A DNA stretch of 64,000 nucleotides from Sphingomonas jatrophae (lineage in GTDB: Bacteria > Pseudomonadota > Alphaproteobacteria > Sphingomonadales > Sphingomonadaceae), in contig NZ_FOZG01000002.1 of NCBI RefSeq assembly GCF_900113315.1, positions 1,054,001 through 1,118,000 on the forward strand, in the 5' to 3' direction. A program made the position numbers and the translations under genes. This document shows positions 6,781 through 39,303 of this stretch, in pieces. Below the pieces are notes generated by a model that was not told the origin of the DNA, made no database searches, and saw nothing but the letters and a program-made list of their open reading frames with translations. Positions within the stretch are counted from its first letter, which is position 1, and every line of letters starts with the position of its first letter.

Positions 6781-6805
6781 GGAACCGCGCCCCGCGGCGG
6801 CCGTT
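6781..6805 (+). promoter_or_regulatory. EcfG-type general-stress promoter for the hemerythrin gene
   Basis: GGAAC at 6781-6785 and CGTT at 6802-6805 are separated by exactly 16 bases, the spacing known for EcfG promoters in Sphingomonas. The predicted start, about 7-10 bases further, leaves a 20-base leader with GGAG before ATG 6834. The region is palindromic (CCGGAACC ... GTTCCGG), and the opposite strand reads GGAAC-N16-GGTT. Confidence 0.65.
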
Positions 6806-11297: not shown

Positions 11298-12196
11298 AGC
11301 GCGACACGGACGATCGCTGCGACGACGACATCGTCGTCCGCGTGCGCGGCCTCGCCAATCGCTTCGGCGAACAGGCGGTGCACGAAAACCTCGATCTGGA
11401 GGTGCGCCGCGGCGAGATCCTCGGCGTGGTCGGCGGCTCGGGCACGGGGAAATCGGTGCTGATGCGCTCGATCATCGGCCTGCAGACACCCGCCGAGGGC
11501 GAGATCGCGGTGTTCGGTGAGCCGATGATCGGCCGGGACGAGACAGAGGCGAAGAATGTCCGCCGCCGTTGGGGCGTACTGTTCCAGGGCGGCGCGCTGT
11601 TCAGCACGCTGACCGTCGCCGAGAACGTGCAAGTCCCTTTGCGCGAATATTATCGCCGGCTGGACCAGCGCCTGCTGGACGAGATCGCCACCTACAAGGT
11701 CGCCATGTCGGGCCTGCCGCCCGAGGCCGGTCCGAAATATCCGTCCGAGCTGTCGGGCGGCATGAAGAAGCGCGCCGGCTTGGCCCGTGCGCTCGCGCTC
11801 GATCCCGAGCTGCTGTTCCTGGACGAGCCTACCGCCGGCCTCGATCCGATCGGCGCCGCCGCGTTCGACGAGCTGATCCTCGAGCTCAAGGCGACGATGG
11901 GGTTGACCGTCTTCCTCATCACGCACGATCTCGACACGCTGTATGCCATCTGCGACCGCGTGGCGGTGCTGGCGGATCGCAAGGTGATCGCCATCGGAAC
12001 GATCGAGGAATTGCTCGCGTTGGATCATCCCTGGATACAGGAATATTTCAACGGTCCACGCGGCCGGGCCGCCGCCGGCGGCGATCAGGATCTCGGCCGC
12101 GCCGAACGTGAAGAGGGGCCTCGCCTGCGGGAACAGCAGCGCCAGGCGGAAGCCGGGCAGGTCCAGGCGCAAGGCGCAGAAGGGGTGGCGCGCTGA
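11294..12196 (+). CDS. mlaF: Mla-type ABC transporter ATP-binding protein
   Basis: Cytosolic ATPase that drives the MlaE permease. The 300-residue product has Walker A GGSGTGKS (47-54), Q-loop FQGGALF (98-104), signature LSGGMKKR (153-160), Walker B LLFLDEPTAGLDP (174-186) and the switch histidine in ITHDLDTLY. The signature with MKKR is characteristic of the MlaF/Ttg2A branch. The last 45 residues (from about 256) form a Glu/Arg/Gln-rich tail beyond the usual end near 265, reading like a flexible extension. ATG 11294 overlaps the mlaE stop by four bases and the TGA overlaps the mlaD ATG by one base, so all three are coupled. Confidence 0.95.
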   Translation: MKRDTDDRCDDDIVVRVRGLANRFGEQAVHENLDLEVRRGEILGVVGGSGTGKSVLMRSIIGLQTPAEGEIAVFGEPMIGRDETEAKNVRRRWGVLFQGGALFSTLTVAENVQVPLREYYRRLDQRLLDEIATYKVAMSGLPPEAGPKYPSELSGGMKKRAGLARALALDPELLFLDEPTAGLDPIGAAAFDELILELKATMGLTVFLITHDLDTLYAICDRVAVLADRKVIAIGTIEELLALDHPWIQEYFNGPRGRAAAGGDQDLGRAEREEGPRLREQQRQAEAGQVQAQGAEGVAR

Positions 12197-31457: not shown

Positions 31458-32471
31458 ATGACTCGCCGTCCTTTCCTAGCCGCGCTCACTGCGCTCCTGC
31501 TGGCGTCGCCACTCTTCGCCGCCGCTCCGCCGGTCAGCCTGCTCAACGTCTCCTACGATCCCACGCGTGAGTTGTACCGCGCGGTCAACGCCGCCTTTGC
31601 GCGGCAATGGGCCCGCACGCATGGCGGCCAAATCGTCACTATCCAGCAGAGCCATGGCGGCTCGGGCAAGCAGGCCCGCGCCATCATCGACGGGCTCGAT
31701 GCCGATGTTGCGACGCTCGGCCTCGCCTACGACATCGACGAAATCGCCAAGCGCTCCAAACTGCTGCCCGCCACGTGGCAATCCCGTCTGCCGGCAAACA
31801 GCGCGCCTTATTGGTCGACGATCGTGCTGTTGGTGCGCAAGGGCAATCCCAAGAACATCCGCGATTGGGATGATCTGGCAAAGCCCGGCGTCGAGGTCAT
31901 CACGCCCAATCCGAAGACCGGCGGCGGCGCACGCTGGAATTATCTCGCTGCTTGGGGCTATGCGCAGCGCCGCTACGTCACGGCCGCAGCCACGCGCGAT
32001 TTCATGACGCGGCTGTTCCACAACGTGCCCGTGCTCGACAGCGGTGCGCGCGGCGCCACCACCACCTTCGTCCAGCGCGGACAGGGGGATGTGCTGATCA
32101 CGTGGGAGAATGAGGCGATCCTCGCCCAGCAGGAGCTGGGCGGCGGCCAGTTCGAGATCGTCGTGCCGTCCGTCTCCGTCCTGGCGGAGCCTTCGGTCGC
32201 GCTGATGGACAAGGTAGTCGATCGCAAGGGCACGCGGGCACCCGCGCAGGCCTATCTCGATTTCCTCTACAGCCGCCAGGCGCAGGAACTGATCGCGCGC
32301 AATCATTACCGACCCCGCGACCCCGCGGTTGCCCGCCGCTACGCCGCCGATTTCCCGCGACTGGCGCTGTTGCAGGTGGATCGTAATTTCGGCGGCTGGG
32401 CGCGTGTGCAGCAGGCCCACTTCTCGAACGGCGGACTGTTCGACCGGATTTATCGAGACGCCAGGCGGTGA
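31458..32471 (+). CDS. Sulfate/thiosulfate ABC transporter substrate-binding protein
   Basis: A 337-residue periplasmic sulfate-binding protein of the Sbp/CysP family. A signal peptide (1-22, ASPLFAA) is followed by [20 protein letters not shown]. Typical ligand segments are [38 protein letters not shown] and [18 protein letters not shown]. No permease or ATPase gene is beside it, so it must work with a transporter elsewhere. A seven-base stem (31432-31438 with 31448-31454) places the GGGGAGA ribosome-binding stretch in its loop just before the ATG. It is flanked by terminators on both sides and is thus a single-gene unit. Confidence 0.93.
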
Positions 32472-32488
32472 CTCCCTGAGCGCACCCT

Positions 32489-32527
32489 GCGGCCCGGTCG
32501 CTTCACGGAGCGCCGGGCCGCTTCTTT
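32489..32527 (+). terminator. Terminator between the sulfate-binding and glycosyltransferase genes
   Basis: A nine-base stem (32489-32497 with 32513-32521), with an internal CGCT/AGCG pairing, is followed by TTCTTTG. The converging glycosyltransferase stop is at 32529, so it can serve both directions. Confidence 0.65.
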
Positions 32528-32528
32528 G

Positions 32529-33536
32529 TCAGCTGCCAAGAATGCGGCGGTAGAGCGCGAGATAATCGTCCGCCATCCGCTCGACCGAGAAGCGTTCGAT
32601 TGCATGCGCCCGGCAGGCCGCCCGGTCGATCTCCCCCAACCGCTCGACAGCCGCGATCGCCTCCGCCTCGGTGTTGACGAGAAAGCCGGTCACGCCATCG
32701 ACGATCAGCTCCGGCATGGATCCGCGCGCATAGGCGATCACCGGCGTGCCGCACGCCATCGCCTCGGCGACGGACAGACCGAACGGCTCGTCGAAATGGA
32801 TGAGGTGGAGCAGAGCCGCGGCCTGTCCAAGCGTCCGCGCGCGCTCGGCACCGCCGACCGCACCGATGAAGCGCGCATCCGGCCCGAGCAGAGGCTCCAC
32901 CTCCCGCTCGCTATAGCCGCTGTCCTGCACGATGCCTGCCAGCACGATCTCCCGCCCGGCCGCCCGCGCGACGCGGATCGAGTCCGCGGCCCCCTTGTCG
33001 GGATGGATGCGGCCGAAGAACAGCAGTCGTTCCGCGCCCTGAGGCTCGAACGGGAAGTCGTCGATGCGGATGCCGTGATGGATCGTCGCGGCATAATCGA
33101 GCGACGGATGCCGATCCGAGTCCGAGATCGCAACATAGTGCACGCGGTGCTCATACGGCTTGTACATCGGCAGGATGCGATCCGAGGAGAAGCCGTGGAT
33201 CGTCGTCACCATCGGCGTCGGCACCAGATTGGCGAAGGCGTGGGCAGGGAAGTCGGCCTGATTGTGGATCAGGTCGAATTCGCCCGCACGCTCGAACAGA
33301 TGGGCGAGATGGGCGAACTCCCACACCTTCGCATCGATCGCCGGATCTTCCGAGTAAGGCGCGGGCACCACGCCGGCGAGCGTGCCCGCCGTCTGGCTGT
33401 CGAGCGTGGCGAATAGGGTCACGTCGACGCCGCGTGCCACCAGTGCCTCGGTCAGCAGCGAGGTGACGAGTTCCCACGGCCCGTAGGCGCGTGGCGGCGT
33501 GCGCCAGCTGATCGGCGCGAGCATGGCGATCTTCAA
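32529..33536 (-). CDS. Glycosyltransferase family 4 protein
   Basis: A 335-residue GT-B retaining glycosyltransferase. The N-terminal acceptor domain starts MKIAMLAPISWRTPPRAYGPWE, typical of GT4 proteins that act on small sugars. The C-terminal donor domain shows RLLFFGRIHPDKGAADSIRVARAAG near 170-195 and EPFGLSVAEAMACGTPVIAYARGSMPELI near 255-285, the E-x7-E donor-binding motif. It has no membrane segment. It is the last gene of a three-gene operon with GH13 and GH130, overlapping the GH13 stop by four bases. A role in making a storage or protective glycan is inferred from these neighbours only. Confidence 0.9.
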   Translation of the reverse strand: MKIAMLAPISWRTPPRAYGPWELVTSLLTEALVARGVDVTLFATLDSQTAGTLAGVVPAPYSEDPAIDAKVWEFAHLAHLFERAGEFDLIHNQADFPAHAFANLVPTPMVTTIHGFSSDRILPMYKPYEHRVHYVAISDSDRHPSLDYAATIHHGIRIDDFPFEPQGAERLLFFGRIHPDKGAADSIRVARAAGREIVLAGIVQDSGYSEREVEPLLGPDARFIGAVGGAERARTLGQAAALLHLIHFDEPFGLSVAEAMACGTPVIAYARGSMPELIVDGVTGFLVNTEAEAIAAVERLGEIDRAACRAHAIERFSVERMADDYLALYRRILGS

Positions 33537-35101
33537 GCGGACAGCTCCACTATGATTCCTTCATCGGGGCGCAGCATTCCCGGCTCGGGCTCGCCGGCGA
33601 GCGTCGAGAGCAGAGGCGTGCCGCTCCAGGCGATGCTCCGGCTCTCGGGGGTGAGATTGAGCAGCACGCGCAGTCGTCGGTCGCCCAGCCGGCGCTCGAA
33701 CATCAGCACGTCATTTTCAGCGTCCACCGCCGAGATGTCGCCGAGCGACAACGCTCGCTCCTCCCGCCGAAGCGCGAGCAGCCGGCGGTAGAGCGTCAGC
33801 ATCGAGCACGGATCGTCCGCCTGTGCCGCCACGTTGCGGGTCCGCCAGTCGTCGTGCAGCGGCAGCCACGGCGCCCCCGTGGTGAAGCCGGCCTGCGCGC
33901 CCGCATCCCACGCCATCGGCGTCCGCACCGGATCGCGCCCAAGGCCGAGGCCGGGTTCACGCAACTCGCGTGGATCGACCGCCTTGTCTTCGGGGATCGC
34001 CACATAGGCCATGCCCAGCTCATCGCCATAATAGAGCGTCGGCGTGCCGCGCAGCGTCAGCAGCAGCATCGCCGCCACGCGTGCCTGTGCCTCGCCGACA
34101 CGGGCGGCGATCCGCGGGCGGTCGTGATTGCCCAGCACCCAGTTCGGCCACCCGCCGGGCGGCAGCGCCGCCTCATAGTCGCGGATGGCGGCGGCGATGG
34201 TGGCCGCGTCCCAGGTCATCCCGATCAGCTGGAAGTTGAAGGGCAGGTGCACGCCCGGGGCTTCCGGTGTGCCGTAATAATGCATCAGCCGGTCGTTCGG
34301 CAGATAGATCTCACCGATCAGCAGCCGCGCGCCATAGTCGTCCGCGATGCGCCGCATCTCGGCCGAGATGTCGTGCACTTCGGGCTGGTCGGTGGAATGG
34401 AGCTGCAACACCTTGTGCATCTCGCCCATGCCATGCGCGTAACCGGGGTTGACCGGATTGTCGCGGAAGTCGGCCGCCTTGATCATGTGCCACAGCACGT
34501 CGATGCGAAATCCGTCGACGCCGCGGTCGAACCAGAAGCGCAGGCCGTCCATCATCGCCGCGCGCAGATCCGGATTGCGCCAGTTGAGGTCCGGCTGCTC
34601 CTTCAGGAAGGCATGGCTGTAATATTGCCCGGTCGCCGCGTCATAGTCCCACGCCGGGCCACCGAAATCGCTGATCCAGTTGTTCGGCGGTCCGCCGTCC
34701 GGCGCTGGATCGCGCCAGATATACCAGTCGCGCTTCGGATTATCACGGGAGGAGCGGCTTTCGACGAACCATGGGTGCCGGTCCGACGAATGGTTGGGCA
34801 CGAGATCGAGCAGCAGCTTCAGCCCGCGCGCATGCGCCGCGGCCAGCAGCCGGTCGAACGCCGCCAAATCGCCGAACAGCGGATCGATGCCGGTATAATC
34901 AGCCACGTCATAGCCGAAGTCCGCCATGGGCGAGGGGAAGATGGGCGACAGCCACAGCGCATCGACGTCCAGCATCGTCAAATAGTCGAGCCGCGCCTCG
35001 ATCCCAGCCAGATCGCCGACACCGTCGCCATCCGCATCCTGGAAGGAACGGGGATAGATCTGGTAGATGGTGGCCGCCTCCCACCACGGCCGTTCGCTCA
35101 T
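33533..35101 (-). CDS. GH13 alpha-glucosidase family enzyme
   Basis: A 522-residue alpha-amylase-superfamily enzyme of the oligo-1,6-glucosidase/alpha-glucosidase type. The (beta/alpha)8 barrel holds all conserved regions: DLVPNHSSDRHPWF (99-112), the nucleophile GVDGFRIDVLWH (Asp201), the acid/base LIGEIYLP (Glu264) and VLGNHDRPR (His326, Asp327). The opening WWEAATIYQIYPRSFQDADGDGVGDL is typical. There is no signal peptide, so it acts in the cytosol on imported or internal glucosides. ATG 35101 overlaps the GH130 stop by four bases; upstream in-frame sequence to 35599 is just antisense to GH130 and was rejected. Confidence 0.95.
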   Translation of the reverse strand: MSERPWWEAATIYQIYPRSFQDADGDGVGDLAGIEARLDYLTMLDVDALWLSPIFPSPMADFGYDVADYTGIDPLFGDLAAFDRLLAAAHARGLKLLLDLVPNHSSDRHPWFVESRSSRDNPKRDWYIWRDPAPDGGPPNNWISDFGGPAWDYDAATGQYYSHAFLKEQPDLNWRNPDLRAAMMDGLRFWFDRGVDGFRIDVLWHMIKAADFRDNPVNPGYAHGMGEMHKVLQLHSTDQPEVHDISAEMRRIADDYGARLLIGEIYLPNDRLMHYYGTPEAPGVHLPFNFQLIGMTWDAATIAAAIRDYEAALPPGGWPNWVLGNHDRPRIAARVGEAQARVAAMLLLTLRGTPTLYYGDELGMAYVAIPEDKAVDPRELREPGLGLGRDPVRTPMAWDAGAQAGFTTGAPWLPLHDDWRTRNVAAQADDPCSMLTLYRRLLALRREERALSLGDISAVDAENDVLMFERRLGDRRLRVLLNLTPESRSIAWSGTPLLSTLAGEPEPGMLRPDEGIIVELSA

Positions 35102-36234
35102 GCGAAGCGTGCCTTGGGAATGCGGGTCAGCCGGCAGGCGAGATCCGCCTCCCCGCTCGCCACAAGCCAGTCGTCGCCCGCATCGACCATGCCGGTCGAG
35201 AAGACGACGGAGCTGGGCAAGTAGAGCCGGTCGGCGAAGCGTGCGGTCAGCGCCGGATTCGCCTCCAGCACGGGAACGGTGTCGTCGAGGTGGATCAGCC
35301 GCCATGGCTCGGCCGCGTCGAACAGGGCCCAGAAGGTGCGGTAGACGCCCACCGTCTCCTGCGGCGCGACGCCGTGCCACAAGGTCAGCCAGCCCCGGTC
35401 CGTCAGCACCGGCGGCGTGCCGCCGCCCACCTTCGCCGCGGTGGCGGTGCCCGCGCGCGGGCGGATGCCCGGCGCCTCGTGCGGCCGCCAGTGCAGCCCG
35501 TCGGGCGAGCGGGCGAGGTTGATGGACGGGCCAGGCAGGTGTTCGGAGCCCGGCGGATAGAGGAACCAGCACTCGCCCAAGGGCCGCGTCAGCGCCCAAT
35601 AGGCGCCGTCCACACGGCCTTCGTAGAGCAGCATGTCCTTGTTCTGATGATCGAGGACGATGCCCTCCAGCCGCCAGTCGAGCCCGTTGCCGCTGACGTG
35701 CATCGTCGTCGAATGACGCTCGGCCGAAACCGAGCAGGTCGTCATCCAGTATCGTCCATCGATCCGGCTGATCCGGGCATCCTCGACGCCATAATGCTGG
35801 TAATCTGCCACCGGCGCGATCGCGCGGTCGTAATGCACATCGACGATCCGGCGTCCGTCCGCATCCAGTTCGACCGGCAGCAGCCAGGAGAGCGAGGTCA
35901 GTCCGAGCACGCGGTGCCGCTTGCCTTTCAGCTCGAACTGGCGCGGGTCGGCCATGTCGATATCGGCGAGCGGCCAGCCATCGAGCACGTAGCCGTCGGC
36001 GGTCCAGCGGATCGCACGCGCGAGGCCGGCGACCACCGGCTCACACAGTGCCTCCGCCACGCGCACCATCATCAGCAAATTGCCCGACGGCAGGCGCGTG
36101 AAGCCGGGATTGAACGCGCCCAGCACGAACGTGTCCGCGCCCAGCGATCCGCGCAGCGGCGAGCGCGCGAGATCGACATCGTCGGGCGTGAAGACGAGGC
36201 GGTCGTCGAGGACGGCCGTGGATCGTTCCGGCAT
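35098..36234 (-). CDS. GH130 family glycoside phosphorylase/hydrolase
   Basis: A 378-residue five-bladed beta-propeller protein of GH130, a family with mannosyl-glucose and beta-1,2- or beta-1,4-mannooligosaccharide phosphorylases. Landmarks are FVLGAFNPGFTRLPSGNLLMMVRVAE (37-62), YGVEDARISRIDGRYWMT near 150 (the catalytic Asp of the VEDARI motif), and GGGTPPVLTDRGWLTLWHG near 270. No signal peptide is present. It is the first gene of the GH130-GH13-GT4 operon. An EcfG-like promoter ends only nine bases before the ATG, so the mRNA may be leaderless or begin downstream. The sugar is not known. Confidence 0.88.
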   Translation of the reverse strand: MPERSTAVLDDRLVFTPDDVDLARSPLRGSLGADTFVLGAFNPGFTRLPSGNLLMMVRVAEALCEPVVAGLARAIRWTADGYVLDGWPLADIDMADPRQFELKGKRHRVLGLTSLSWLLPVELDADGRRIVDVHYDRAIAPVADYQHYGVEDARISRIDGRYWMTTCSVSAERHSTTMHVSGNGLDWRLEGIVLDHQNKDMLLYEGRVDGAYWALTRPLGECWFLYPPGSEHLPGPSINLARSPDGLHWRPHEAPGIRPRAGTATAAKVGGGTPPVLTDRGWLTLWHGVAPQETVGVYRTFWALFDAAEPWRLIHLDDTVPVLEANPALTARFADRLYLPSSVVFSTGMVDAGDDWLVASGEADLACRLTRIPKARFA

Positions 36235-36243
36235 CGTGCGCGC

Positions 36244-36268
36244 AACGGTGCGCGCCGGGCACGGTTCC
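36244..36268 (-). promoter_or_regulatory. EcfG-type promoter of the GH130-GH13-GT4 operon
   Basis: On the minus strand GGAAC (36268-36264) and CGTT (36247-36244) are separated by exactly 16 bases, a full consensus match. The start codon at 36234 is nine bases away, so transcription should begin within two or three bases of the ATG. Confidence 0.7.
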
Positions 36269-36317
36269 GTAAGTCCATGGCTTTACTTGGCTGCGCGTTC
36301 ACGTCAGGGCCACTGCC

Positions 36318-37829
36318 GTGAAGCGCGTCCTCAATCCCATCGCCCTCAGCGACCGGCAGTTCAATTGGCTGGTCGTGGCTTTGATGTCCGTCGGCTTCCT
36401 CGCGCTGATCGCGGCCGGCGCGGCGGCCGCTTATGTCGTGTCGCGCAACCAGGCGCAGACAGGATGGGTCACGCACACCTACGAGGTGGAGCGCGGCATC
36501 TTCGAATATCGCCTGCTGTTCGAGCGGATCGAGACGGCGCGGCGCGGCTATATGCTGACGCAGCAGCCAAGCTTCCTGCAAAGCTATGAAGAGGCGTCGG
36601 TCGGCGTGCCGCGCGCGCTGGCGCGGGTGCGCCGGCTGACCGCGGACAATCCCGCGCAGAAACGGCCGGTCGCCCGGCTCGAACAGCTCGATCGCGCGCA
36701 GAAGGAACTGGCGGACGAATCGGTCGCGCTGGTCCGCTCGGGTCGGGCGATGGATGCGCTGCGCCGCTTCGGCGTCGATGGCAGCATCGCCATCGTCCGC
36801 GAGATGCGGCGCGTCACCGACCGGATGTTCGCCGAGGAGAACCGCCTGCTCGCCCTGCGCGAGGCGGAGCAGGTGCGCACCGGGCGGCTGTTCTACTGGG
36901 TGATCGGGGTGGCGGCGCTGCTGCTGCTCGGCGTTGCCGCGCTGTCGCTCGTCGTCATCCGCCGCTACGTGACCGAGCTTGGCCGCAGCCAGGGAGCGCT
37001 CCGCCAGCTGAACGAGGGACTGGAGGATGCGGTCAAGACGCGCACCGCCGATCTCCAGCGCGCGAACGAAGAGATTCAGCGTTTCGCCTATATCGTCAGC
37101 CACGATCTGCGCTCGCCGCTGGTCAACGTGATGGGCTTCACCGCCGAGTTGAAGGCGGCGACCAAGCCGCTCGCCGCGCTGATCGACCGGGCCGAGGAAG
37201 AGGCACCGCACATCGTCGACGAGGAGGCCCGCCTCGCGGCCCGTGAAGACCTGCCGGAGGCGATCGGCTTCATCCGTGCCTCGACGCAGAAGATGGACCG
37301 GCTGATCAACGCCATTCTGAAGCTGTCGCGCGAGGGGCGGCGCGTCATCACGCCGGAACGGCTCGACATGGCCGCGCTGATCGAAGGGATTCGCGGGTCG
37401 CTCGCCCACCGGCTCGATGCGGCCGGTGCCGAGGTGCGGGTCGATATGCCGCTGCCGGCGATCGTCAGCGATCGCGTGGCCATCGAGCAGGTCTTCTCCA
37501 ACCTCATCGAGAATGCGGTCAAATATGCCGCGCCCGGCCGCCCCGGCGTTGTCGAGGTGCGCGGCCGTCGCGAAGGGCCGCGACTGATCTATGAGGTTGC
37601 GGATAATGGCCGCGGAATCGATCCAAAGGATCATGAGCGCGTGTTCGACCTGTTCCGCCGGTCGGGCGTACAGGATCAGCCGGGCGAAGGCATCGGCTTG
37701 GCGCATGTCCGTGCGCTGGTCTATCGGCTCGGCGGCACGATCGGTGTCGAATCGCAACTGGGTTCGGGCGCGACCTTCCGGGTCGTGCTGCCGGCAATTC
37801 TCGTGAAGGAAGGTGAGCGGCAGTCATGA
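36318..37829 (+). CDS. Sensor histidine kinase with CHASE3 domain
   Basis: A 503-residue membrane kinase. Membrane helix 1 at about 17-40, a CHASE3 periplasmic sensor (about 45-185; RGIFEYRLLFERIETARRGYMLTQQPSFL), membrane helix 2 at about 191-214, a coiled coil to about 250, then the HisKA domain with YIVSHDLRSPLVNVMGF (His262) and an ATPase with the N box NLIENAVKYA, G1 DNGRGIDPKDHERVFDLF and G2 GEGIGLAHVRAL. It should be an active transmitter. The signal for CHASE3 domains is usually unknown. Its stop overlaps the ATG of the next receiver gene by four bases. It diverges from the GH130 operon over 83 bases. Confidence 0.93.
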   Translation: MKRVLNPIALSDRQFNWLVVALMSVGFLALIAAGAAAAYVVSRNQAQTGWVTHTYEVERGIFEYRLLFERIETARRGYMLTQQPSFLQSYEEASVGVPRALARVRRLTADNPAQKRPVARLEQLDRAQKELADESVALVRSGRAMDALRRFGVDGSIAIVREMRRVTDRMFAEENRLLALREAEQVRTGRLFYWVIGVAALLLLGVAALSLVVIRRYVTELGRSQGALRQLNEGLEDAVKTRTADLQRANEEIQRFAYIVSHDLRSPLVNVMGFTAELKAATKPLAALIDRAEEEAPHIVDEEARLAAREDLPEAIGFIRASTQKMDRLINAILKLSREGRRVITPERLDMAALIEGIRGSLAHRLDAAGAEVRVDMPLPAIVSDRVAIEQVFSNLIENAVKYAAPGRPGVVEVRGRREGPRLIYEVADNGRGIDPKDHERVFDLFRRSGVQDQPGEGIGLAHVRALVYRLGGTIGVESQLGSGATFRVVLPAILVKEGERQS

Positions 37830-38269
37830 ACGGACAGCAGAGCGTCAACATCGTCATGGTCGAGGACGATGAGGGCCATGCCCGCCTGATCGAGAAGAAC
37901 ATCCGCCGCGCGGGAATCTCGAACGCCATCCGTCATTTCACGGACGGCACCAGCGCGCTGGATTACCTCTTCCACCATCCCGAAGGGCCGGCGGCGAACG
38001 GCCCGGCGCTCGTCCTGCTCGATCTCAACCTGCCCGACATGAGCGGGACGGACATTCTCGTCCGCCTCAAGGAAGATACCAGCCCTCTTCGCCGCACCCC
38101 CGTGGTCGTCCTCACGACCACCGACGACAAGGTGGAAATCCAGCGCTGCTACGATCTCGGCTGCAACGTCTACATCACCAAGCCGGTCGATTATGAGAGC
38201 TTCGCCCAGGCCATCCGCCAGCTCGGCCTGTTCCTGTCCGTGATCCAGGTGCCCGATCCCGAGGAATGA
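37826..38269 (+). CDS. Rcp1-like single-domain response regulator
   Basis: A 147-residue receiver close to the Rcp1 type that usually pairs with phytochrome-like or CHASE3 kinases. Key residues are Asp14/Asp15 (VEDDEGHARLI), Asp66 (VLLDLNLPDMSG), Thr97-99 region (VVVLTTTDD) and Lys119 (YITKPVDYESF). There is no output domain. The four-base overlaps with the kinase upstream and the receiver-kinase downstream (ATGA at both joints) imply equal translation of all three, as expected for a phosphorelay. It probably shuttles phosphate from the CHASE3 kinase. Confidence 0.93.
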   Translation: MNGQQSVNIVMVEDDEGHARLIEKNIRRAGISNAIRHFTDGTSALDYLFHHPEGPAANGPALVLLDLNLPDMSGTDILVRLKEDTSPLRRTPVVVLTTTDDKVEIQRCYDLGCNVYITKPVDYESFAQAIRQLGLFLSVIQVPDPEE

Positions 38270-39303
38270 GCGACCGTCCCCGCCACATCCTCTACATCGA
38301 CGACGATGACGGTCTGCGGCGGCTGACCGCGCGCGCCCTCGCACGCCGCGGCTTCGAGGTGACGACGGCCGGCAGCGGCCCCGAGGGGGTCGCGCTCGCG
38401 CAGCAGGGCCGCTTCGATCTGATCGCGATCGATCACTACATGCCCGGCATGGACGGCCTCGCCACCTTGGCCGAGCTTCAGGCGCTGCCCGATCTGCCGC
38501 CCGTCGTCTACGTCACCGGTTCGGAGGAAAGCCGGATCGCCGTCGCCGCGCTGAAGGCGGGCGCCACCGAATATGTCGTGAAGTCGATCGGCGACGATTT
38601 CTTCGACCTGCTCGCCGCTGCGTTCGAGGGCGCATCCGAGCAGGTCGGACTGCGCCGTGCCAAGGAAGAGGCGGAGGATGCACTGCGCGCCTCCAACGCG
38701 CGGCTGGAAGCGCTGCTGCGCGAGGTCAATCACCGCGTCGCCAACTCGCTCCAGCTCGTCACCGCCTTTGTTCAGATGCAGGCGCGCGAGCTCGACGATC
38801 CCGCCGCGCGCGCCGCGCTCGAGGATACGCAGAGCCGCATCACGGCGATCGCGCAGGTTCACCGCCGCCTCTACACCTCCGACGATGTCGAGACGGTGGA
38901 GATGGGCGACTATCTCGGCGCGCTGCTGAAGGAGCTCGAGGACACCTGGTCCACCCCCGCCGCCCGCCGCACGCTGCGGCTGGACGCTGAGCCGATCCGC
39001 CTCAAGACGGACCGTGCCGTCTCGGTCGGCGTGATCGTCAACGAGCTTGTCTCCAACGCCTGCAAATATGCCTATCAGACATCGTGCGACGGCGAGATCC
39101 GCGTGCAGCTGCGTCAGCAGCCCGACGACAGCTTCCTCCTCGCGGTCGAGGATGATGGCTGCGGCATGCCGGTGGCGGGCGCACCGCGCGGCACCGGGCT
39201 CGGCACCAAGCTGATCCGCGCCATGGCCGCCAGCCTCGGCACCGCAGTCGAGTTCGACCTCGCCCATCGCGGCGTCCGCGCGACCCTGCAGGCGGCGTGC
39301 TAA
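38266..39303 (+). CDS. Receiver domain fused to a HisKA_2-type histidine kinase
   Basis: A 345-residue soluble hybrid. Receiver at 1-120: IDDDDGLRRLTARAL with Asp56 in AIDHYMPGMDG and Lys106 in YVVKSIG. A coiled coil at about 128-150 leads to a HisKA_2/HWE-like dimerisation domain with REVNHRVANSLQLV (His156), then an ATPase domain with NELVSNACKYAY and DDGCGMP plus GTGLGTKLIRAMAASL. Input is thus from phosphorylation and output is another phosphotransfer, since no DNA-binding domain exists. HisKA_2 proteins in alphaproteobacteria often feed the PhyR-EcfG general stress pathway, which would link this relay to the EcfG-like promoters nearby; that link is inference. Confidence 0.92.
   Translation: MSDRPRHILYIDDDDGLRRLTARALARRGFEVTTAGSGPEGVALAQQGRFDLIAIDHYMPGMDGLATLAELQALPDLPPVVYVTGSEESRIAVAALKAGATEYVVKSIGDDFFDLLAAAFEGASEQVGLRRAKEEAEDALRASNARLEALLREVNHRVANSLQLVTAFVQMQARELDDPAARAALEDTQSRITAIAQVHRRLYTSDDVETVEMGDYLGALLKELEDTWSTPAARRTLRLDAEPIRLKTDRAVSVGVIVNELVSNACKYAYQTSCDGEIRVQLRQQPDDSFLLAVEDDGCGMPVAGAPRGTGLGTKLIRAMAASLGTAVEFDLAHRGVRATLQAAC

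Follow-up and report, generated by a model that had tools for sequence, protein, structure and literature searches.

The stretch of DNA analysed here (64,000 nt of the Sphingomonas jatrophae genome, hereafter the window) carries on its minus strand three consecutive genes for glycan-active enzymes, and on its plus strand a divergent set of three signalling genes (Table 1). The GH130 protein, encoded by the first gene of the minus-strand set, is 378 residues long and opens with the ATG at 36234, the earliest ATG, GTG or TTG downstream of the preceding in-frame stop codon. By eye, the next ten codons contained no further start codon. The ATG start of the GH13 gene, which we placed at the peptide MSERPWW (the PF00128 scan ran from position 35134), overlaps the GH130 stop codon by 4 nt, and the TTG start of the GT4 gene overlaps the GH13 stop codon by another 4 nt. 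Since the next long open reading frame past GT4 that we regard as a gene lies on the plus strand (31458–32471), the three genes look like a single predicted transcription unit. The solved structures nearest to the GH130 protein were Lin0857 and the Uhgb_MS mannoside synthase, and its structure-bearing relatives are, by name, mannoside phosphorylases and synthases; phosphate-binding residues are reported to distinguish GH130 phosphorylases from hydrolases (PMC4599007). The GH13 protein was nearest to 6aav, 7voh and 3wy1 (alpha-glucosidases and an alpha-glucosyltransferase), and the chain nearest to GT4 is named merely "Glycosyl transferase" (7fg9/8x3q). A literature search on GH130 together with Sphingomonas gave nothing on this operon among the matches listed.

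Table 1. Features of the GH130 locus, in window coordinates.
Feature	Position	Strand	Basis
GT4-type glycosyltransferase, TTG start	32529..33536	-	Pfam glycosyltransferase families
GH13 alpha-glucosidase-like protein	33533..35101	-	PF00128
GH130 family protein (beta-mannoside phosphorylase/hydrolase family), operon gene 1	35098..36234	-	Pfam PF04041, 71.2 bits
Nine-base gap from CGTT to ATG, without Shine-Dalgarno match	36235..36243	-	Predicted transcription start within about 1 base of the ATG (published spacing)
EcfG-type promoter GGAAC-N16-CGTT	36244..36268	-	Letters read; kept in relatives
CHASE3 sensor histidine kinase, KipF-like	36318..37829	+	PF05227, PF00512, PF02518
Single-domain response regulator, divergent operon	37826..38269	+	PF00072
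Receiver and HisKA_2 histidine kinase, PakF-like	38266..39303	+	PF00072, PF07568

Directly before the GH130 gene, the minus strand reads GGAAC-CGTGCCCGGCGCGCAC-CGTT, followed by the nine bases GCGCGCACG and by the ATG at 36234–36232. The first-pass annotation had proposed a full EcfG consensus on the proper strand nine bases before this start codon, and the letters agree with it exactly. The site combines the GGAAC -35 box, the CGTT -10 box and a spacer in the 16–17 nt range of EcfG-type promoters (a group which we take to be ECF15-type here), and its distance of 9 nt falls within the 100 nt upstream of a same-strand gene. No Shine-Dalgarno core match of 3 or more was found upstream of the GH130 gene.

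The divergent operon starts 83 nt from the GH130 ATG. PakF of Sphingomonas melonis Fr1 (#1661) has a receiver domain. For the same strain, KipF is reported to be a CHASE3 kinase connected with salt sensing (PMC10950880) and to act as the kinase of PakF (PMC5863495). The window has a CHASE3 HisKA kinase close to a receiver–HisKA_2 kinase, with a response regulator as neighbour, as in the Fr1 pair that feeds salt and heat signals into the general stress response. In view of these descriptions, the divergent kinases are probably KipF and PakF, the likeness to Fr1 being one of published description. The same three genes were found together in S. melonis AS2.3, S. aquatilis and S. liriopis, away from their GH130 genes, with identities of 63–65% for the CHASE3 kinase (residues 153 or 163 to 498 covered), 81–84% for the response regulator and 67–68% for the receiver–HisKA_2 kinase. 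The window was the only place where these genes were seen next to the GH130 operon: among 80 other GH130 loci (some of them short) none of the three was observed beside GH130, apart from a kinase hit of 29% identity about 5 kb away in one locus (L131).

Distribution and conservation of the EcfG-type site

Taken as a string of letters the site is within chance; it is weak alone and its context is strong. The window contained three matches to GGAAC-N15..18-CGTT, where 0.98 would be expected; at least three were obtained in 10 of 100 shuffles. The whole genome (4.06 Mb) contained 33 matches to GGAAC-N16-17-CGTT and 37 to the pattern written backwards, showing no genome-wide enrichment by this comparison. 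The positions of the matches were very different. With genes called by a home-made simple codon-usage caller, 24 of the 30 exact sites examined (out of 33; two of the loci, L029 and L030, are a single site seen on both strands) preceded a gene by at most 120 nt, one of the 24 additionally overlapping a called gene. The corresponding figure for the backwards pattern was 0 of 29 scored sites (30 of the 37 were fetched and one, close to a contig end, was left unscored), of which 26 were within genes and 3 were intergenic.

Only three of the 24 upstream sites were 9–10 nt from an ATG, the others being at 16–102 nt. Besides the site before GH130, these are two exact sites on contigs C5 and C6 of the same genome, 9 nt (L007) and 10 nt (L023) before an ATG; the genes behind them appeared by eye to encode a membrane protein and an acetyltransferase-like protein, and it is possible that they are further leaderless stress genes. 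Within the window, a second exact EcfG-type site was observed at 6781–6805 on the plus strand, 28 nt upstream of a gene beginning MAGKYTARNREGDHV, and the third exact match (11996–12021) was within a called gene.

GH130 relatives were present in 45 of the 199 family genomes sampled, the S. jatrophae genome included. In a first family sample, the exact motif was found within 300 nt upstream in 4 of 29 relatives (5 of 30 with the window). A second scan used the best 80 of 497 GH130 relatives from named genomes, which together with the window gave 81 upstream regions, 79 of them distinct after two duplicates had been dropped. The exact motif with a spacer of 16 or 17 was present within 100 nt before the GH130 start in 29 of the 79 regions, so the EcfG-type promoter is kept at the same place in these relatives. 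The spacer was 16 in 24 of the loci and 17 in 5; each of the other spacers from 8 to 27 was seen at one locus at most. The motif occurred once on the opposite strand. Across the 359 alternative permutations of the motif letters the mean count in the 79 regions was 0.12, and the two highest counts among them, 18 and 5, belonged to one-base shifts of the motif itself. The motif was present in 28 of the 58 loci having both GH13 and GT4 genes against 1 of the 21 loci without this context, as defined by a score rule that also excludes some short or divergent loci. Eleven more loci showed the variant GGAAC-N16/17-CGCT, ending 8–9 nt before an ATG, and under our rules 39 of the 79 had no call for either form, CGTT or CGCT.

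Some of the sampled loci carried unexpected taxonomic labels. One is assigned to Arthrobacter sp. TPD3018 (L075); its GH130 gene groups closely with that of S. aquatilis, and the label is therefore probably wrong. Six loci on contigs labelled Myxococcota or delta-proteobacteria (L090, L091, L097, L100, L110 and L136) had GH13 and GT4 hits beside GH130, and three loci from Spirosoma and Larkinella (L121, L122 and L133) had none. GH130 identities of 60–66% in both sets suggest that the cluster, or GH130 by itself, has been transferred.

Short-distance and leadered layouts of the operon

The 29 exact cases fell into two groups according to the distance between CGTT and the start codon. It was 8–10 nt in 14 of them, all with an ATG start, and 22–30 nt in 15, which started with TTG (11 cases), ATG (3) or GTG (1) and had mostly G-rich, Shine-Dalgarno-like leaders. 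On a quick tree of the GH130 proteins (built from residue 11 onward) these groups fell largely into two sister clades; the counts that follow come from related rows, and the window is a long end branch. The clade containing the window (29 rows, support 89) had a promoter 8–10 nt before an ATG in 24 genes (14 with CGTT and 10 with CGCT), no long-distance case, and 5 rows without a called motif. The sister clade (20 rows, support 85) had 13 long-distance cases, no short one, and 7 rows without a called motif; its leaders, 23–30 nt in length, contain Shine-Dalgarno-like sequences and are mostly followed by TTG or GTG. ATG starts were assigned to 29 of 29 rows in the window clade versus 3 of 20 in the sister clade by a start-codon picker that slightly favours ATG. 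The mean longest Shine-Dalgarno core match was 1.66 nt in the former and 3.95 nt in the latter, and two of the five motif-less members of the window clade (L062 and L078) had a 4-nt match each. Two changes on the tree are needed to account for the short and long states of the motif-bearing rows, which we read as one change at the split between the two clades and another in an outlying row (L134).

The window itself shows a particular arrangement. Its GH130 protein has about seven additional N-terminal residues compared with relatives (36211–36234), and GTC stands where the relatives have their start codon. Measured against the conserved part of the protein, the promoter of the window sits where the leadered relatives have theirs. 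A convergent origin of its short-distance layout, to which the longer N-terminus and the promoter position could point, was set aside because the tree places the window inside the short-distance clade, through nested branches with supports of 98, 82 and 89.

We tentatively propose, at somewhat under even odds, that the same EcfG-controlled operon exists in Sphingomonas in two inherited layouts, a leaderless one starting on AUG and a leadered one with Shine-Dalgarno-like sequences. In the lineage of the window, the unit from promoter to ATG would have stayed at 9 nt despite the longer N-terminus. The leaderless layout implies that GH130 translation would depend on initiation at a 5' AUG, which would add a translational level of stress control, so that the general stress response would govern both transcription and translation of the operon. 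The existence of a leadered sister clade was beyond what the first-pass annotation had considered.

Probable regulation by EcfG and predicted transcription start

A single locus of the S. jatrophae genome encodes NepR, PhyR, an ECF sigma factor in an EcfG neighbourhood and a HisKA_2 kinase, so that PhyR, NepR and a candidate EcfG are all encoded. The NepR and PhyR models scored above cut-off. The sigma gene adjoins phyR, with a GGAAC-N17-CGTT site between the two, and was named EcfG from its neighbourhood and domains, just the general ECF model passing the cut-off among the 25 NCBIfam models listed. In the same region, a small open reading frame beside the EcfG-type gene (L142:7587–7919, minus strand), which had no Pfam match, has an end that looks NepR-like by eye and is perhaps a second NepR.

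Published data from a relative bear directly on the cluster. In S. melonis Fr1, the genes #1751 ("Glycosidases") and #1750 ("Glycosyltransferase") rank in the top 50 by strength of EcfG activation, with log2 values of -3.4 and -3.8, respectively (Table 1 of PMC6599016). The motif string given for #1751 matches, with 1 mismatch, the sequence between GH130 and GH13 in S. aquatilis, and that of #1750 matches, with 0 mismatches, the sequence before GT4; the motif-to-gene distances in S. aquatilis agree with the published 26 nt (#1751) and 69 nt (#1750). Judged by these strings and distances, #1751 is the GH13 gene of this cluster and #1750 its GT4 gene. As both are listed as EcfG-activated, the stress link is already known in a relative: EcfG control of the cluster is contained in the Fr1 data, though it goes undiscussed in the passages covered, a precedent that the first-pass annotation did not mention. 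GH130 is absent from the portion of the Fr1 table covered, and "1752", the number presumed to be GH130, had no match in the main text of PMC6599016. The GH130 promoter in the S. melonis group has CGCT in place of CGTT. The site of the window resembles the EcfG promoters of Fr1 (PMC6599016) and of Sphingopyxis granuli TFA (PMC7083833), in which GGAAC-N16/17-CGTT lies no more than 100 nt from the start codon. The organisation of the operon differs: the window has a single promoter before GH130 followed by overlapping genes, whereas S. aquatilis and strain TPD3018 (and Fr1, by its motif strings) have separate EcfG-like sites for GH13 and GT4. The earlier proposal that the operon is tied to the general stress response is thus upheld by the positional conservation, by the PhyR/NepR/EcfG-type locus and by the published EcfG dependence of the Fr1 orthologs.

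The position of the transcription start can be predicted from published spacings. In Caulobacter, the SigT motif GGAAC-N16-TGCT is placed at -34 of a mapped start (PMC4287350); counting -34 as the first base of the motif leaves nine bases between the motif and +1. For Rhizobium NT-26, a pattern derived at a mapped start reads GGAAC-N18-TT-N8-G (PMC6011840), which puts eight bases before the start if that is the final G. An offset of about 8–9 nt, applied to the nine bases found here, predicts a start at the first base of the ATG or at the base just before it. Short distances are also listed in Fr1, where EcfG sites lie 8–10 nt from the start of #0072 (10), #1765 (8) and #2534 (8) (Table 1 of PMC6599016). 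The GH130 gene has an AUG start and no Shine-Dalgarno sequence before it, like the leaderless mRNAs of the alphaproteobacteria Sinorhizobium meliloti (PMC3616915), Bradyrhizobium japonicum (PMC4842269) and Zymomonas (PMC7566282), in which a leader and a Shine-Dalgarno sequence are likewise not predicted. The 171 leaderless starts of S. meliloti are all said to be AUG, a codon that is also part of the definition of a leaderless ORF in that work (PMC3616915). The present case differs from these in having a predicted start, an EcfG-type promoter and a leadered clade among its orthologs. A search of the accessible literature combining "leaderless" and "EcfG" retrieved one paper, with EcfG turning up in it once, in a reference. 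The leaderless layout of the GH130 mRNA is well supported as a prediction, and the suggestion of an almost leaderless operon mRNA holds in this form, by virtue of the published offsets, the 8–10 nt distance and constant ATG in the window clade and the scarcity of Shine-Dalgarno matches there.

Three other explanations were weighed. A chance match in GC-rich DNA was taken seriously given the unraised counts in the window and in the genome; it is rejected, and we regard it as extremely improbable, because most of the genomic matches examined sit upstream of genes, where no scored control site does, and because the motif is conserved in relatives, keeping its position across Sphingomonas while the spacer letters differ. 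Use of the site by another ECF sigma factor recognising GGAAC would fit the general preference of these factors for AAC in the -35 box (PMC7083833). However, a CGTT box combined with an N16 spacer is what has been published for EcfG and SigT (PMC7083833, PMC4287350), and the Fr1 GH13 and GT4 orthologs depend on EcfG (PMC6599016), which makes this explanation very unlikely.

A larger share, though still a minor one, goes to the view that the EcfG promoter is genuine and that the main transcript has a leader of 2–5 nt, or that GH130 is mostly translated from a second, leadered transcript. The start-site offset is based on two published examples, and about half of the leaderless units of Zymomonas also had an upstream promoter (PMC7566282). 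Against this, a crude scan of 32300–36600 found no sigma-70-like promoter, and a sigma-70 promoter for the operon was discarded as a candidate; moreover, the divergent genes are just 83 nt apart, the window offers no Shine-Dalgarno match that a leader could use, and the AUG is kept in all members of the window clade. We consider this version unlikely.

We therefore favour, with a probability of roughly 0.8, a genuine EcfG promoter driving a leaderless or near-leaderless GH130-GH13-GT4 mRNA under the general stress response. In this model, activation of the PhyR-NepR-EcfG pathway would turn on the operon through the promoter before GH130. The EcfG–RNA polymerase would start about nine bases past CGTT, on or beside the first base of the GH130 start codon, giving an mRNA that would be leaderless or nearly so. 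Translation of GH130 would then begin at the 5'-terminal AUG with no Shine-Dalgarno sequence involved; GH13 and GT4, presumably co-transcribed, would be translated next via the 4-nt overlaps.

Under stress the operon may serve to synthesise or recycle a glycan of mannose and glucose with a protective or storage role. The stress link suggests a reason why GH130, an alpha-glucosidase-like enzyme and a glycosyltransferase stay together in many Sphingomonas. An orthologous operon occurring in two layouts would offer a clean comparison for the role of leaderless translation in the general stress response of the alphaproteobacteria.
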